Below, one piece after another: positions 39,044-44,305 of a stretch of DNA of 64,000 nt. Source of the DNA: Limnochorda pilosa (GTDB taxonomy: Bacteria > Bacillota > Limnochordia > Limnochordales > Limnochordaceae); assembly GCF_001544015.1 (NCBI RefSeq), contig NZ_AP014924.1, forward strand, positions 558,001-622,000, given 5' to 3'. The translations under genes and the position numbers were made by a program. Within the stretch, counting starts at the first letter, position 1, and every line of letters begins with the position of its first letter. A model generated the notes under the pieces. It was given only the letters and a program-made list of their open reading frames with translations, did not search any database and was not told the origin of the DNA.

Positions 39044-42000
39044 TCAGCGCGGTCCGGGAGGGACCCAGATGGTCTCCCCTTCCAGTATGAGGCGGGGGTC
39101 GGCGATCTGAGGGTTCATCTGCAGCAGGGTCTCCAGCGGCACCCCCAGCGAGCGGGCGATCGACCAGAGGCTGTCCCCCGCCCGCACGACGTACGGCTCT
39201 CCCTCGTGGCGTGGGATGATGATCTGCTGGCCCGGGCGGATCTGTCGGGGGTCGGCGATCTCCGGGTTCACCCGGCGCAGCCCGGCCAGCGGAACATCCC
39301 GGGAACGGGCCAGAGAGAAAAGCGTGTCACCGGGTTGAATCACGTACGTCTCCTCCACCAGGCCCGGAATCCGGATCCTCTGCCCGCGCCGGATCCGCCT
39401 GGGGTCGGTGACCTGGGGGTTCGCCCGCCGGAGGGCTTCGAGCGTCACACCGAAGTCGCGGGCAATCGCGGACAGCGTGTCCTGAGGCCTCACCTGGGTG
39501 AACAGGGCCTTCAGATCGGTGCCAAGGCGAGCTTCGGGTGTTTCCGGTGTCTCGGATTCAGCCGTCGCCGACACCACCTGAGACGGGGCCGTGAGCGGCT
39601 GCGGCTGGTCCGCAGGCTGAGCGCCGGGGGGCCTGCGGGCCTCGACAGGCGGCGCGGGCTGCAGGACGCCGCCCTCGACAAGCTGGATCCGGCGAGGAAC
39701 CGGGACGACGTCCACCTCCACCTGCTCCTCCGCTCCCGCGCGGAGGTGGATGGCCTGCTCTGCCGGGCGGATCTCGTACCACTGGGGCAGGCCGTTCCTG
39801 TGAACGCGGAGCCGCCACTCTCCCGGAGGCAACTGCTCGAAGCTGAAGCGTCCCTGCTCGTCGGTCACGCGCCGGTAGGCGATCTCGTGGTCGACCAGCT
39901 CGACCAGCATCCCTGCCACCCATCGCTTGTCGGCCTCTCCCGGCCCTTCCCCAAAGACGGCGCCTGCTTCGAGGGTGTCCGTGGGGGGCGGAAGGAGCCG
40001 GAGGCGTCCATCCACCCGCGCCCCCTCGACCACCCTGAACTCCTGCTCGACCCTCGTGCCGGCGGGGATCTCCACCCGCCAGGGCGTCTGCGGCAGGGTG
40101 ATCCGTTCGGGACCCAGCTGGTCCGGCCGGAACGTGACATGGTAGGTGCCGGCGCGTACGGCGGCGAACCGGAAACGGCCGTCACCACCGGTGGTCGTCC
40201 GCTGACCGTTGATCTGGACCACCATGTCCGGGAGGCTCTGACCCGCTTCGTCGACGACCCGGCCCACCAGCTCGCCCACGTCGGAGCGGCGGCCCAACTG
40301 GAGATCGAAGGGAAACGTGTAGCTGGCCGTCGCCTTCCACTCCGGCTCCTGGCTCAGGGATCCCTTGGCTTCGCCTCCCGCCACGATGGTGTGAGCGCTC
40401 GGCAGAGTGTACCGGGCTTCGCCCTGAACGCGGTACGTGCTCGCGAGAACGTCGAGAACGTCCAGTCCCAGGCGAAGGGTGAGGCGGTCGTGAACGTTTC
40501 GATAGGAGCGTATTCCGAACGCGAACCTCTCCGGGAGACTTCCCACGAGCGGGAACTCCGCTTGAAGGTAAGGGTCGATGCCCCCGTCCGGCGAAGCGGC
40601 ATGGTAGCTCAGCCGGTAGGCGGCCCTGAGGCTCTCGGTGCCGCCGACCCGATCGATGACCTGCCTGAGGCCCGCGTCCTGGAAGAGGAAACGCTTTCCA
40701 TCGATGGGAAGGTTGAGCACGAACCGGAGCGACCCCTCGCTCCGGTCGCGCTGCCCGGGCTCCACGTCGTCCGAGCGGGCATACTGGAGCCACCAGCCGG
40801 TCCCCTCCCAGCCTCCGCTCAAGTTCAGGCCCGTGTTTCGTACGTTGCGCGCCCACCCGTCCCAGGGGACGCCCTCGTACTCCATCAGGTCGTCGAAACG
40901 GAGGCCGAGCCGCATCGCATCCGAGAAGGGAACGCTGGTGTAGAGCTGGAGCCGTCTGCTGGCGCGGGTGGCCTCCCGGTAGCCTGCCCCGACCTGCTCC
41001 CACGTGGCGTGAGTGACCAGCGCGCCCCCCGAGAAACGGCTCGTCAGGCGGAGAGCGTCGGGCGACGAGGCGAGGCTCGCGGTGGCCTGGAGCCCGTACT
41101 CCACCTGGAAGTCCCACCTCTCCGCCGGTGACACCTGCGCCTGGAGGCTCCAGAGGTCGCCCGGGGCTTCGGACCGGTCCAGGAACTGGAGGGAGAGCGC
41201 GCCCGCCCCGCCGAGGTCGAGGGCGGCCTGGGCACCCACCCTCTCGCGACCGGTGCCGTCTCGGTGTGCGTACGATGTCAGGACGAGGGGGCCCATCGTG
41301 GCGCGCATCTCGGCGCCAGTGGCCAGCCTCTCGCCGAACTCCGTGAGCGGCGATAGAACAAAGCGCTGATCACCGGCGGAGAGGTACAGGTTCGGGCGGG
41401 TGTAGGCTGCCCGGCCCCCCTCGTCGCCCAGCTGGAGGGTGAGTCGGCCAGGATCGCTCTCTGCCAGGGCTCCGGTCCCGGAGATCTCCCAGCCGGTCAC
41501 CCCTCCGGTTGCCGTCATCTCCCGATCGACCGCGATCCGGAGCGGGAAGGTGTGGTACGCGGCATCCCCGGACACGCTGCGCGGGATGATCTCGACCGCG
41601 GCGCTCGCCTGTGCCCGGGGCACGGAGGGGCCGTCGCCCTCGGCGATCAGTTGCACTCGATGGGTCGCGGCCTTGGTCAGACTCTGCGGCACCTGAACCG
41701 ACACGTCCACGGTGACGAGCTCGCCTGGCCGGATGCGGGCCTCCGCCGGTGCCGTCACGGTCCGGAAGCCCAGGTTGTCGTGTATGCGAAAGGTGACCTG
41801 CTGGGGGGTGTTTCCGGTGTTCCGCACGGAGAAGACGAGGCGGTACGGGTCGCCCAGCGTATACGCGGGCGCGCGGACGAGGGTCGCCTCGAGCCCCCGC
41901 GTCGGACGAATCCGGACCGTCGCCCGTCCCTCGAGGTGCACCGGGGGGATCGAACCCTGGAGGTCCACGCGCACCGGGTAATCTCCCGCCGGGGCGTCCT

Positions 42001-42331
42001 GGGGCACCAGCACGGCGAGCAGCAGGACGTGCTCCCCGCCGGGTGGAAGGGTGACCGGGTCCACCGGCACCAGAAGCTGCCACCCGTCCGGGAGCTCGAC
42101 GACCGGCAGGACACTCTGCTCCGCCCCCGTGGTGTTGCCGAGCCGGAAGACGAGGGTGACGGACTGGCGGGGCAGCGCCTCCACGAACGACGTGACGGGC
42201 GTGACGGTCAGCTCATCAGCTTGGGCGCGCCCGCCCCCCGTCCCGGCGGCCAGGACCAGGACGAGCGCCACCGCGGTGGTCCCCACCCACCCCGGGCGGT
42301 TCCGCGGGCGGGGGGAGGGGGAAGCGCTCAA
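39044..42331 (-). CDS. Giant exported usher-like beta protein with three C-terminal LysM repeats
   Basis: A 1,095-residue exported protein. Signal peptide to about residue 38 (GGRAQA|DEL). Residues about 40-250 are two Ig-like NEW3-type domains (RQSVTLVFRLGNTTGAEQ, DPYRLVFSVRNTGNTPQQV). Residues about 260-690 are a long run of amphipathic beta strands (RFVLSPLTEFGERL, LSLQFLDRSEAP, LQLYTSVPFSDAMRLGLRF, SEGSLRFVLNLPI, ERFAFGIRSYRN), in the style of an outer-membrane barrel. Residues about 695-900 are carboxypeptidase-regulatory-like folds (GELVGRVVDEAGQSLPD, TTGGDGRFRF). The last 150 residues are three LysM repeats (DTLSAIARDFGV, DTLFSLARSRDV, DSLWSIARSLGV), which bind peptidoglycan. TTG 42331 overlaps the chaperone stop (TTGA) with GAGGG seven bases upstream. 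Gene order and barrel suggest an usher-like secretion pore; no PapC signature is recognised. Confidence 0.7.
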   Translation of the reverse strand: MSASPSPRPRNRPGWVGTTAVALVLVLAAGTGGGRAQADELTVTPVTSFVEALPRQSVTLVFRLGNTTGAEQSVLPVVELPDGWQLLVPVDPVTLPPGGEHVLLLAVLVPQDAPAGDYPVRVDLQGSIPPVHLEGRATVRIRPTRGLEATLVRAPAYTLGDPYRLVFSVRNTGNTPQQVTFRIHDNLGFRTVTAPAEARIRPGELVTVDVSVQVPQSLTKAATHRVQLIAEGDGPSVPRAQASAAVEIIPRSVSGDAAYHTFPLRIAVDREMTATGGVTGWEISGTGALAESDPGRLTLQLGDEGGRAAYTRPNLYLSAGDQRFVLSPLTEFGERLATGAEMRATMGPLVLTSYAHRDGTGRERVGAQAALDLGGAGALSLQFLDRSEAPGDLWSLQAQVSPAERWDFQVEYGLQATASLASSPDALRLTSRFSGGALVTHATWEQVGAGYREATRASRRLQLYTSVPFSDAMRLGLRFDDLMEYEGVPWDGWARNVRNTGLNLSGGWEGTGWWLQYARSDDVEPGQRDRSEGSLRFVLNLPIDGKRFLFQDAGLRQVIDRVGGTESLRAAYRLSYHAASPDGGIDPYLQAEFPLVGSLPERFAFGIRSYRNVHDRLTLRLGLDVLDVLASTYRVQGEARYTLPSAHTIVAGGEAKGSLSQEPEWKATASYTFPFDLQLGRRSDVGELVGRVVDEAGQSLPDMVVQINGQRTTTGGDGRFRFAAVRAGTYHVTFRPDQLGPERITLPQTPWRVEIPAGTRVEQEFRVVEGARVDGRLRLLPPPTDTLEAGAVFGEGPGEADKRWVAGMLVELVDHEIAYRRVTDEQGRFSFEQLPPGEWRLRVHRNGLPQWYEIRPAEQAIHLRAGAEEQVEVDVVPVPRRIQLVEGGVLQPAPPVEARRPPGAQPADQPQPLTAPSQVVSATAESETPETPEARLGTDLKALFTQVRPQDTLSAIARDFGVTLEALRRANPQVTDPRRIRRGQRIRIPGLVEETYVIQPGDTLFSLARSRDVPLAGLRRVNPEIADPRQIRPGQQIIIPRHEGEPYVVRAGDSLWSIARSLGVPLETLLQMNPQIADPRLILEGETIWVPPGPR

Positions 42332-43182
42332 GGCGCCCTCAGCTCCAGGGTGTAGCGGGCGGCGAAAACGGAGGCGTCCTTGTTGTCTGCGACCACCAGC
42401 GCCTGATAGCTGCCGTGGGCCAGCGGGCCCAGGTCGATCCGCACCCGTACGGAGGTGTCGGGATAGATGCGCCTCGGTTCCACCTCCAAGCGCTCGATCC
42501 GGTCTCCCCGGGCATCGTACAGCTCCATCCACACCTGCGGGATCAGCAGGCGTTCCCCCGGGTTCGCCAGGTCCACCTGGAAGGTGTATCCTCGGTCGTC
42601 TTCCCGGTAGACCAGCGTCGGATCGGCGAAGTCCAGACGAACTTTCGCTCCCCCGCCGGCCTCCGTGACCACCTGCACGCCGTAGCGGAACCGTTGCCGG
42701 ATCCCCAGGGCGACCTCCTCCGCCGGCGCCCGCCCGGGTGGTGCCGGAGCCTCAGGGTCGCCCGGCAGGAGGGGCTCCACCATGATCATGCTCCAGTACG
42801 TGCCCGTCAGGCGATCGTCGGTGGGAACGGAGATTCGGTACAGGACCGTCGACTCCTCACCGGCGGGCACCGTGACCAGGGAGCGGCTCACCGTGATCCA
42901 CCGGGCATTGGAACGGGGGAGCGTGCCCGGCTCATCGTAGTAGGTGCGGCCCTCGGCGTCGAAGCGGTAGTCCGTCTGGTAGATCCGGACGACAGCGGGT
43001 TCGCTGCCGCGGTTCTTCAACCCGAGCACACCCTCGTAGCTCTCCCCCGGCGCCACGTCGAAGTGGTGGGCCAGGGAACCAGAGAGGCTGACCTGGGCCG
43101 CCGCCGACCGGAAGGTGCATCCGAGGAGCACCAGGAGCAGGATGCCCGAGAGGAGGCGAGTTCGACGGGTGCGAGCTCTCAT
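42328..43182 (-). CDS. Pilus-chaperone-like exported protein
   Basis: A 284-residue exported two-domain beta-sandwich protein. Signal peptide LLSGILLLVLLGC...SAAA; the LLGC could be a lipobox. Mature N-terminus: AHHFDVAPGESYEGVLGLKN, GSEPAVVRIYQTDYRF, RSNARWITVSRSLVTVPAGEESTVLYRISVP, which parallels the PapD-type pattern (G1/A strands, NxG, then P-x-G-E boundary). A second Ig-like domain follows (VRLDFADPTLVYREDDRGYTFQVDLANPGERLL). No experimental chaperone signature (conserved Arg/Lys cleft) can be proven by eye. ATG 43182 follows GGAAAGGAAG; GTG 43212 overlaps the upstream stop. It sits between two subunit-like genes and the usher-like gene. Confidence 0.7.
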   Translation of the reverse strand: MRARTRRTRLLSGILLLVLLGCTFRSAAAQVSLSGSLAHHFDVAPGESYEGVLGLKNRGSEPAVVRIYQTDYRFDAEGRTYYDEPGTLPRSNARWITVSRSLVTVPAGEESTVLYRISVPTDDRLTGTYWSMIMVEPLLPGDPEAPAPPGRAPAEEVALGIRQRFRYGVQVVTEAGGGAKVRLDFADPTLVYREDDRGYTFQVDLANPGERLLIPQVWMELYDARGDRIERLEVEPRRIYPDTSVRVRIDLGPLAHGSYQALVVADNKDASVFAARYTLELRAP

Positions 43183-43208
43183 GCTGGGTTCTTCTTCCTT
43201 TCCGGGCC

Positions 43209-43727
43209 TCACAGGGCGACCACCGTGTAGACCAGTGCGGTCGTGTACGTATCGGGCGGCACGGAGAGAGAGACGCCGCTCAGCCTCACCTGGACCTCGA
43301 CGCCCGAGACGTCGCCCGTGCCGGTGAAGAACGGGTTGTCCGCCGCGCCGACGATGACATACGAATCACCACCGCTCGCCGTGCCGGTCCCCGTTCCTGC
43401 CGAGGTGCGCTGGACCTCCAGGATGAAGTCGGGCCACCAGTAGACGTCGCTCCTCCGGACGGTCACCTGCCAGCTCGCGCCCGCGGTGTTGGCGATGGCC
43501 AGGCTGAGGGTACCCAGCGGGCTCTCGTACATGCTTTGGAGCTCCGAACCGGGACCGGCGGTCAGGTCGCTGGCGTCGATCGTCTCCGACCAGATCCCCG
43601 TCGCGGTGATGTCCGCCGCCCGGACACGACCGGCCGTGGCGGTGAGTGCGAGCAGGACGACCAGGAGGACCGCCGGCGGTCTTCGCCCGGCGCGCCGGCT
43701 CAACGGCCAGACCTCATCCATCCTCAT
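43209..43727 (-). CDS. Exported beta-sandwich protein, fibre-subunit-like
   Basis: A 172-residue exported protein: signal peptide to about residue 38 (RVRAAD), then beta strands TLSLAIANTAGASWQVTVRRSDV, YVIVGAADN, VEVQVRLSGVSLSV and a terminal DTYTTALVYTVVAL. The alternating hydrophobic last strand resembles the C-termini of spore-coat-U/Csu-type pilins, which are grasped by chaperones. Its stop overlaps GTG 43212 of the chaperone gene. The upstream ribosome site is weak, so the ATG at 43721 is an alternative. It follows the first subunit gene after a hairpin that may lower its expression. Confidence 0.65.
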   Translation of the reverse strand: MRMDEVWPLSRRAGRRPPAVLLVVLLALTATAGRVRAADITATGIWSETIDASDLTAGPGSELQSMYESPLGTLSLAIANTAGASWQVTVRRSDVYWWPDFILEVQRTSAGTGTGTASGGDSYVIVGAADNPFFTGTGDVSGVEVQVRLSGVSLSVPPDTYTTALVYTVVAL

Positions 43728-43763
43728 GAACCCGACCGGCCCCCCCGATCAGCACGAAAGGGT

Positions 43764-43799
43764 CGCGGGCAGGGAAGCGCCACGCTCCCCTGGCCCGCC
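43764..43799 (-). terminator. Attenuator-like hairpin between the two subunit genes
   Basis: On the minus strand GCGGGCCAGGGGAGCG pairs imperfectly with CGCTTCCCTGCCCGC across a 3-base loop and is followed by GACCCTTTCG. A partial terminator here would leave the first subunit more highly expressed than the rest, as in many fibre operons. Confidence 0.5.
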
Positions 43800-43819
43800 G
43801 TTCCCCGGATCGTCTATGC

Positions 43820-44305
43820 TTACAGCGTGATCGTGAACGTGACGGTGTGGGTCTCGCCCCCCGGGGCATTCGGTGCCGCGGTGGCGAGCACGTCAGCCGT
43901 ATAAGTGATCGGAACCAGCGTGGCGCTCACGTTGGAGATACCGGTCACCACGTCGGCCGCGACGGTGGAGAGAGCCACCTTACTGGCCGCCGTTCCCTCT
44001 CCGGCTCCGGGTGTGAGTTCCACGGAGAGCGTGATCCCCGCGGCGTAGTCCAGGTCCAGTGCGGCCGTGATCTTCAGGTTCGTCCCGTTGGTGCTGTAGT
44101 CCATCGTGGTTGTGTTCTCGGTGACGGTGGCAGGTAACGGTCCGGACACCGTGATCGTCCCGGGGTTGCCCGAGACCGAGATGGTGTCGATGGAGTTGAC
44201 CACGATCGTCACGTCCTGCGTCGCCGTGGTCTGCGCCACGGCCACGTTCGACCCAGCCAGGAGCAAGATCCCCAGCAGCACGACGAGCAGAGCCAGTTTC
44301 CGCAT
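43820..44305 (-). CDS. Exported fibre-subunit-like protein (first gene of the usher-like cluster)
   Basis: A 161-residue exported protein. Signal peptide MRKLALLVVLLGILLL to VAVAQ (24-25). The mature protein is rich in Thr/Val/Ala/Gly with almost no charge and no cysteine: TQDVTIVVNSIDTISVSG at the N-terminus and THTVTFTITL at the C-terminus. An N-terminal alternating strand plus a C-terminal alternating strand is what donor-strand-exchange subunits show. It is also compatible with DUF4402- or SCPU-like coat proteins. ATG 44305 follows AAAGGAG. It is the most upstream gene and probably the major subunit. Confidence 0.7.
   Translation of the reverse strand: MRKLALLVVLLGILLLAGSNVAVAQTTATQDVTIVVNSIDTISVSGNPGTITVSGPLPATVTENTTTMDYSTNGTNLKITAALDLDYAAGITLSVELTPGAGEGTAASKVALSTVAADVVTGISNVSATLVPITYTADVLATAAPNAPGGETHTVTFTITL

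Follow-up and report, generated by a model that had tools for sequence, protein, structure and literature searches.

A probable chaperone-usher-like surface-fiber operon with a WxLIP-type chaperone in Limnochorda pilosa, conserved across distant phyla

Chaperone-usher pili count as a Gram-negative system and fall into a few classes. Here, we describe an operon of Limnochorda pilosa that probably encodes a related kind of machine. It lies in a stretch of 64,000 nucleotides (contig NZ_AP014924.1, positions 558,001 to 622,000 of the forward strand), which we call the window, and consists of four genes, all on the minus strand, between positions 44305 and 39044. In order of transcription, these encode a small protein with a signal peptide, subunit A (43820..44305, 161 residues); its homolog, subunit B (43209..43727, 172 residues); a chaperone-like, predicted periplasmic protein with two Ig-like domains (42328..43182, 284 residues); and a large, putatively outer-membrane, usher-like protein (39044..42331). 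The latter has 1,095 residues when read from a TTG start that overlaps the stop codon of the chaperone gene, or 1,080 from an alternative internal GTG start. The original prediction, made from the DNA letters alone, had listed four same-strand genes that overlap or lie close together, and all four open reading frames (ORFs) were found at these places. At 0.694, the G+C content of the operon differs little from the 0.704 of the window, which gives no hint of a recent import.

We gathered 24 loci by similarity of the chaperone alone (24-46% identity). They span about nine phyla and come from Orenia (Halanaerobiales), Gammaproteobacteria, Deltaproteobacteria and Desulfobacterales, Armatimonadetes, Planctomycetota, Verrucomicrobia, Treponema, Aminicenantes, Rhodothermales, and Bacteroidetes. 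Through gene calling and iterative profile searches, we located subunit A and the large protein beside the chaperone in 24/24 loci and subunit B in 22/24; some of the large-protein genes were cut by contig ends and one was split into two frames. Since the loci were chosen without regard to A, B, and the large protein, the linkage of these is an independent test, and the association of the four genes is not due to chance. The prevailing gene order is A(n)-B-chaperone-usher, and four Bacteroidetes loci have the order A-chaperone-usher-A-B. The distance matrices of usher and chaperone co-vary (r 0.83, 0/2000 permutations), which shared ancestry alone could explain. The search for conserved linkage suggested in the original prediction revealed a four-gene set kept across phyla, and the system is not specific to Firmicutes.

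The two small proteins are homologous (probability [P] 95% in a profile-profile comparison with hhalign), with the homology beginning 19 residues later in A. The surplus is an N-terminal extension of about 19 residues (TQDVTIVVNSI...), followed by a predicted beta-sandwich and the C-terminal strand HTVTFTITL. Across relatives, the extension has the consensus TQTVTFEVQAINEI. Hydrophobic residues alternate in the same phase in 32/32 A extensions, single sequences being too short to reach significance by themselves. A conserved alternating strand also closes both kinds of subunit (YSTTVTYTV, TVTFTLTD). The expectation of alternating strands at both ends of both subunits thus holds for the N terminus of A and for the two C termini, and fails for the N terminus of B, which has no extension. 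The number of A copies per operon varies from 1 to 7, and the B-type copy is always one. At the two loci without B (L022 and L024), an A copy lacking the extension stands in its place. Each operon thus has a single subunit without the extension and at least one with it, which, as far as sequences can tell, is the pattern of a tip and of polymerizing subunits in donor-strand polymerization. One Armatimonadetes locus (L012, 1122-5505) has seven tandem A copies and then a single B.

The affiliation of these subunits is harder to trace. Look-ups in Pfam and NCBIfam gave nothing useful for A, B, or the chaperone, and the Pfam scan of the window found nothing specific in these three proteins. The WxL domain (PF13731) was unmatched in 34 A and 22 B proteins, Pfam gave no pilin match for them either, and comparisons of the A and B profiles with WxL and with Escherichia coli pilins stayed at noise level. 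The matches of these profiles in a sequence search of the PDB were short and at chance level, and we discarded them. B is confidently predicted as an all-beta fold in an AlphaFold co-fold of B and chaperone from one locus (L007), built as one read-through chain across the stop codons that separate these neighboring in-frame genes; chaperone matches filled the PDB fold lists from this model, and matches of the subunit fold did not appear in them.

The chaperone offers a clearer affiliation. Its family profile matches the solved WxLIP1 of Enterococcus faecium (EfmWxLIP1) in a PDB profile search (E 2e-6). In hhalign comparisons, it aligns over both domains with seven WxLIP proteins (P 96.6%, E 6e-10); against eight pilus chaperones of E. 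coli, the score is lower (P 80%, E 1e-5), and reversed-sequence controls stay below 1%. The Pfam family WxLIP_PGBD gave marginal matches only, in 10/25 members (best E 0.01). The fold is predicted by AlphaFold with a local confidence (predicted local distance difference test, pLDDT) of about 95. Its best PDB match is WxLIP (9i25/9i1y; Foldseek E 2e-12; Z 17.0 over 231 residues), and the next are the pilus chaperones CfaA (3e-9), CsuC (4e-9), YadV (6e-9), and FimC (8e-8). Alignment with VIA-align gave Z scores of 13.2 for CfaA, 12.6 for FimC, 12.5 for YadV, 12.0 for CsuC, and 11.0 for PapD, over 175-200 residues in both domains. The description of the 284-residue protein as a two-domain, pilus-chaperone-like one is therefore borne out by a predicted PapD-like fold. 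The invariant arginine R166 aligns with the arginine of the SRIKL strand, and there is no evident equivalent of the basic pair R8/K112, with which PapD anchors the C terminus of its subunit. Toward the end of the first domain, two long strands are joined by a loop (residues 289-316 of the fused chain) that is modeled with low confidence (block pLDDT down to 54); a hairpin that becomes ordered upon binding could be expected to behave in this way. In published AlphaFold models, a hairpin strand of WxLIP fills a gap in WxL and completes its sandwich, and each WxLIP of a WxL cluster is accompanied by two small exported proteins (PMC10599100). A structure of the WxLIP-WxL complex is present in the PDB (9i25). 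Completion of WxL by this hairpin is the donor-strand principle of pilus chaperones.

These affinities raise the question of whether the operon encodes a WxL-like surface complex without polymerization, in which the WxLIP-like protein would hold A and B for display and the barrel of the large protein would export them singly or in small complexes. WxLIP is the nearest relative of the chaperone by both sequence and fold, and WxL clusters likewise have two small exported proteins per WxLIP (PMC10599100). Yet, we find this unlikely. The chaperone of the window and those of its relatives have no C-terminal membrane helix and, unlike WxLIP, end in a beta-strand. No Pfam WxL domain was found in A, in B, or in the whole window genome, with a positive control. 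Moreover, the extension found only in A, the up to seven A copies, and the usher-like barrel favor a chain. We also observed that subunit A of another genome of the same order (L088, 3739-4305) ends in SPTVTWTIGP, near the C-terminal W-x-L motif of WxL domains; this ending could possibly link the A family to the WxL subunit family. Separately, a record labeled as a Klebsiella pneumoniae plasmid (CP069367.1, 101788-102450) encodes a protein 72% identical to an Enterococcus WxLIP, likely because of mislabeling or contamination.

The large protein was modeled with AlphaFold2 from a 21-member alignment (A1; pLDDT 80). Pfam identified three LysM (2e-37), CarboxypepD_reg (2e-19), and NEW3 Ig-like (9e-12) domains, the latter two agreeing with the Ig-like and carboxypeptidase-regulatory-like domains previously proposed for this 1,095-residue protein. 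Its predicted architecture starts with two NEW3/ASH-type Ig-like domains (residues 41-248, 41588..42211, minus strand as for all that follow; Pfam and model), which we infer to lie on the periplasmic side. Next come a predicted beta-barrel of 24-26 long strands (residues 259-681, 40289..41557; model and Foldseek) and two transthyretin/carboxypeptidase-regulatory-like sandwiches (residues 685-877, namely, 685-779 and 809-877; 39701..40279; Pfam and model). After a predicted disordered linker, the protein closes with three LysM peptidoglycan-binding repeats (residues 942-1090, 39062..39508; Pfam and model). The seven best PDB matches of the whole protein are all FimD or PapC (Foldseek E 2.5e-14 to 8e-12), with 8-12% identity in alignments of 740-800 columns that cover the barrel and the flanking domains. 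We conclude that the modeled protein has an usher-like architecture, homology to ushers not being demonstrated; the barrel and these matches agree with its earlier designation as a pore or usher candidate.

We regard it as probable that the operon is a chaperone-usher-like system for the assembly of surface fibers, of a class outside current family models. The functional analogy drawn in the original prediction is supported by the folds, the linkage, and the subunit pattern. Several results nevertheless weigh against this interpretation. When the barrel is compared alone (VIA-align), MtrB (Z 19.5, 4.3 Å, 393 residues) comes ahead of FimD (Z 15.8, 5.2 Å, 336 residues for the translocation domain; Z 16.3 for the whole chain), and porins score nearly as high, so the barrel taken alone is not specific. 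The predicted barrel has no plug domain, there being no gap longer than about 20 residues between long strands. The Pfam family Usher (PF00577) is unmatched in the window protein and in the 21-member family, with a positive E. coli control, and comparing profiles with six ushers of E. coli K-12 gave no match (hhalign P 4.7%). The usher's own N-terminal Ig pair, used as a control, matched the chaperone with P 88%, above the P 80% of PapD-type proteins; hence, the PapD profile score alone shows only a shared Ig-type superfamily. Pfam listed no PapD family match for 25 chaperone members. Finally, the B-chaperone co-fold reached a predicted template modeling score of just 0.59, such that the two folds are confident and their mutual orientation is not, and we used it for folds only. 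Nor was the Pfam usher found elsewhere in the window genome or in 20 relatives (21 genomes).

Alternatively, the large protein could be a porin or an OmpM/SlpA-like tether between outer membrane and wall, the small proteins and the chaperone being accessories of a surface layer. The barrel matches include porins as well as two tether proteins, OmpM1 and SlpA, and the lineage of the window has a LysM tail. We hold this to be very improbable, as most relatives lack LysM (1/21 proteins of alignment A1 has it), whole-chain Foldseek searches put ushers first, and the linkage to chaperone and subunits is constant. The missing usher homology could instead reflect a true archaic (sigma) or alternative (alpha) chaperone-usher operon of the same ancestry that diverged beyond the reach of profiles. 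The gene order is identical, and CfaA and CsuC are among the pilus chaperones nearest by fold. Such an origin is improbable given the lack of a plug, the different N-terminal domain, the absence of detectable usher homology, and a chaperone that is nearer to WxLIP than to any pilus chaperone. The Csu-type (archaic) class read from the gene order could not be retained: the operon is not Csu-type by sequence.

If the operon is a fiber-assembly system, how would it work? A and B would be exported through Sec, each as an incomplete beta-sandwich, and in the periplasm, the WxLIP-type chaperone would lend each subunit a strand as it folds. The N-terminal Ig-like domains of the barrel protein may then receive the chaperone-subunit complexes, and the large barrel would pass the subunits across. 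The barrel protein could also promote donor-strand exchange, with the extension of an incoming A filling the groove of the previous subunit. Because it has no extension, B would start the chain and sit at the tip. In the lineage of the window, the three LysM repeats might additionally pin the barrel to peptidoglycan.

This last element is of narrow distribution. Within alignment A1, LysM occurs in 1/21 proteins, that of the window. Two other loci of the same phylum (L060 and L061) have two LysM at the same position of the large protein; that of L062 has no LysM, and those of L088 and L089 end without a LysM-type tail. LysM being confined to the window protein, L060, and L061, the anchor is a lineage-specific addition, in our sample restricted to the window genome and two relatives. 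We infer that its function is to brace the pore to peptidoglycan. The proposal of a peptidoglycan-anchored pore therefore stands as far as the three LysM are concerned and does not extend to the system in general, since most relatives have none. Pfam found no SLH domain in the window protein, which has LysM instead. Directly 3' of the LysM-tailed usher gene, both L060 (5121-6812) and L061 (5330-6958) have a LysM-like gene; the product in L061 carries a pair of LysM as well as a weak Secretin_N match, and it may act as a partner that binds the wall.

Negativicutes, Halanaerobiia, and Limnochordia are the Firmicutes classes with known Gram-negative-staining diderm members (PMC11448272). The window genome has three copies of Omp85. 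Every genome tested that has the canonical operon also has Omp85, and three members of the phylum that lack the operon lack Omp85 too. Since its genome encodes Omp85, the host is probably diderm, and an outer-membrane machine is not out of place in this Firmicutes-like genome, where it had been thought unexpected or strongly diverged. Counts with the chaperone profile (E 1e-30) in sampled genomes per phylum gave matches in 16/247 genomes for the phylum of the Bacteroidetes locus, in 8/151 for that of Armatimonadetes, and in 1/299 for that of the Gammaproteobacteria locus, the latter being the seed itself. In the window's phylum, 4/249 genomes have the canonical form and several more a diverged one; the Orenia sample shares members with it (identical match places) and thus belongs to the same phylum. 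Two further genomes of the window's order encode subunits together with a chaperone-usher pair. Overall, the distribution is patchy and resembles that of an accessory system.

Several neighboring observations concern variants of this organization. Three diverged loci (L065, L068, and L069) encode a single chaperone together with four small exported proteins, whose C-terminal strands are conserved; an usher-like gene of weak similarity lies on the other DNA strand. The window genome itself has a second chaperone and usher-like pair of 258 and 964 residues without LysM (L028, 3985-7657; C1 103984-107656), preceded by a long ORF ending in the WxL-like strand GNYSATLLYTTTT. It also has a 559-residue ORF with a WxLIP-like part (L029, 6211-10022; C1 2002210-2006021) and a subunit-like ORF upstream. 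Similar ORFs of 500-690 residues are widespread in the phylum, and at least one of them lies in a genome that lacks Omp85 (G021). In the operon of the window, the gap between A and B contains a strong stem-loop (43765..43798, minus strand; minimum free energy of the gap -51 kcal/mol, z -2.5), possibly a partial terminator that reduces downstream expression. Among relatives, it is strong at some loci and absent from others, and we dropped it as a conserved element. The A-B gap is commonly 50-350 base pairs and the B-chaperone spacing is tight, which would fit a surplus production of A, in a pattern that is not uniform.

What could these results mean? They point to a likely additional class of chaperone-usher system whose usher and subunit families are its own. 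It occurs in diderm Firmicutes and in phyla that have been little studied, and current Pfam and NCBIfam models miss it. We found no description of this operon in the open-licence literature, and one may exist elsewhere. With a chaperone intermediate between the WxLIP of Gram-positives and pilus chaperones, the relation between WxL and pili becomes testable. This may connect two surface systems so far handled separately, and it bears on how surface fibers changed as Firmicutes lost the outer membrane. The LysM-tailed usher suggests that a fiber-assembly pore can be braced directly against the wall. We tentatively go further, in a proposal that we give somewhat less than an even chance: scattered diderms would have a further class of donor-strand fiber machine with a soluble WxLIP chaperone, including a form with a LysM-pinned usher, and WxL and chaperone-usher pili would be branches of one donor-strand chaperone family, of which the monoderm branch lost the usher together with the outer membrane.

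How does the operon compare with known systems? With the OmpM/SlpA tethers of Terrabacteria, it shares the combination of a barrel and a peptidoglycan-binding module, in a diderm of the same broad group, but it has a C-terminal LysM instead of SLH, its gene lies in an operon with a chaperone and subunits, and most of its relatives are untethered. With the WxL cluster of Lactobacillales (DUF916-DUF3324), it shares a chaperone homologous to WxLIP across both domains, as well as two types of small, exported beta proteins with the pattern Y-x-T-x-(V/L)-x-(Y/W)-x-(V/L) at the end of the last strand. It differs from this cluster by having no C-terminal membrane helix, no WxL domain, and no LPXTG protein, and by a predicted outer-membrane barrel in diderm hosts, whereas the WxL setting is monoderm. 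The chaperone-usher pathway (FimC/FimD, PapD/PapC; CsuC/CsuD; CfaA/CfaC) has the same subunit-subunit-chaperone-usher order. According to the models, it also has the same two-domain PapD-like chaperone fold and a large barrel with an N-terminal and two C-terminal flanking domains and, judging by sequence, one subunit that lacks the strand-like N-terminal extension of the others. In contrast, the usher described here has no detectable sequence homology to that of the pathway and no plug; it has Ig-like N-terminal domains rather than PapC_N, transthyretin-like C-terminal domains, and an optional LysM tail, and the A and B families have no detectable sequence relation to known subunits. The lack of Pfam Usher, PapD, and WxL matches and of a plug places the system outside the Csu, alternative, and classical families, of which it is not a member although it would work like the chaperone-usher pathway.

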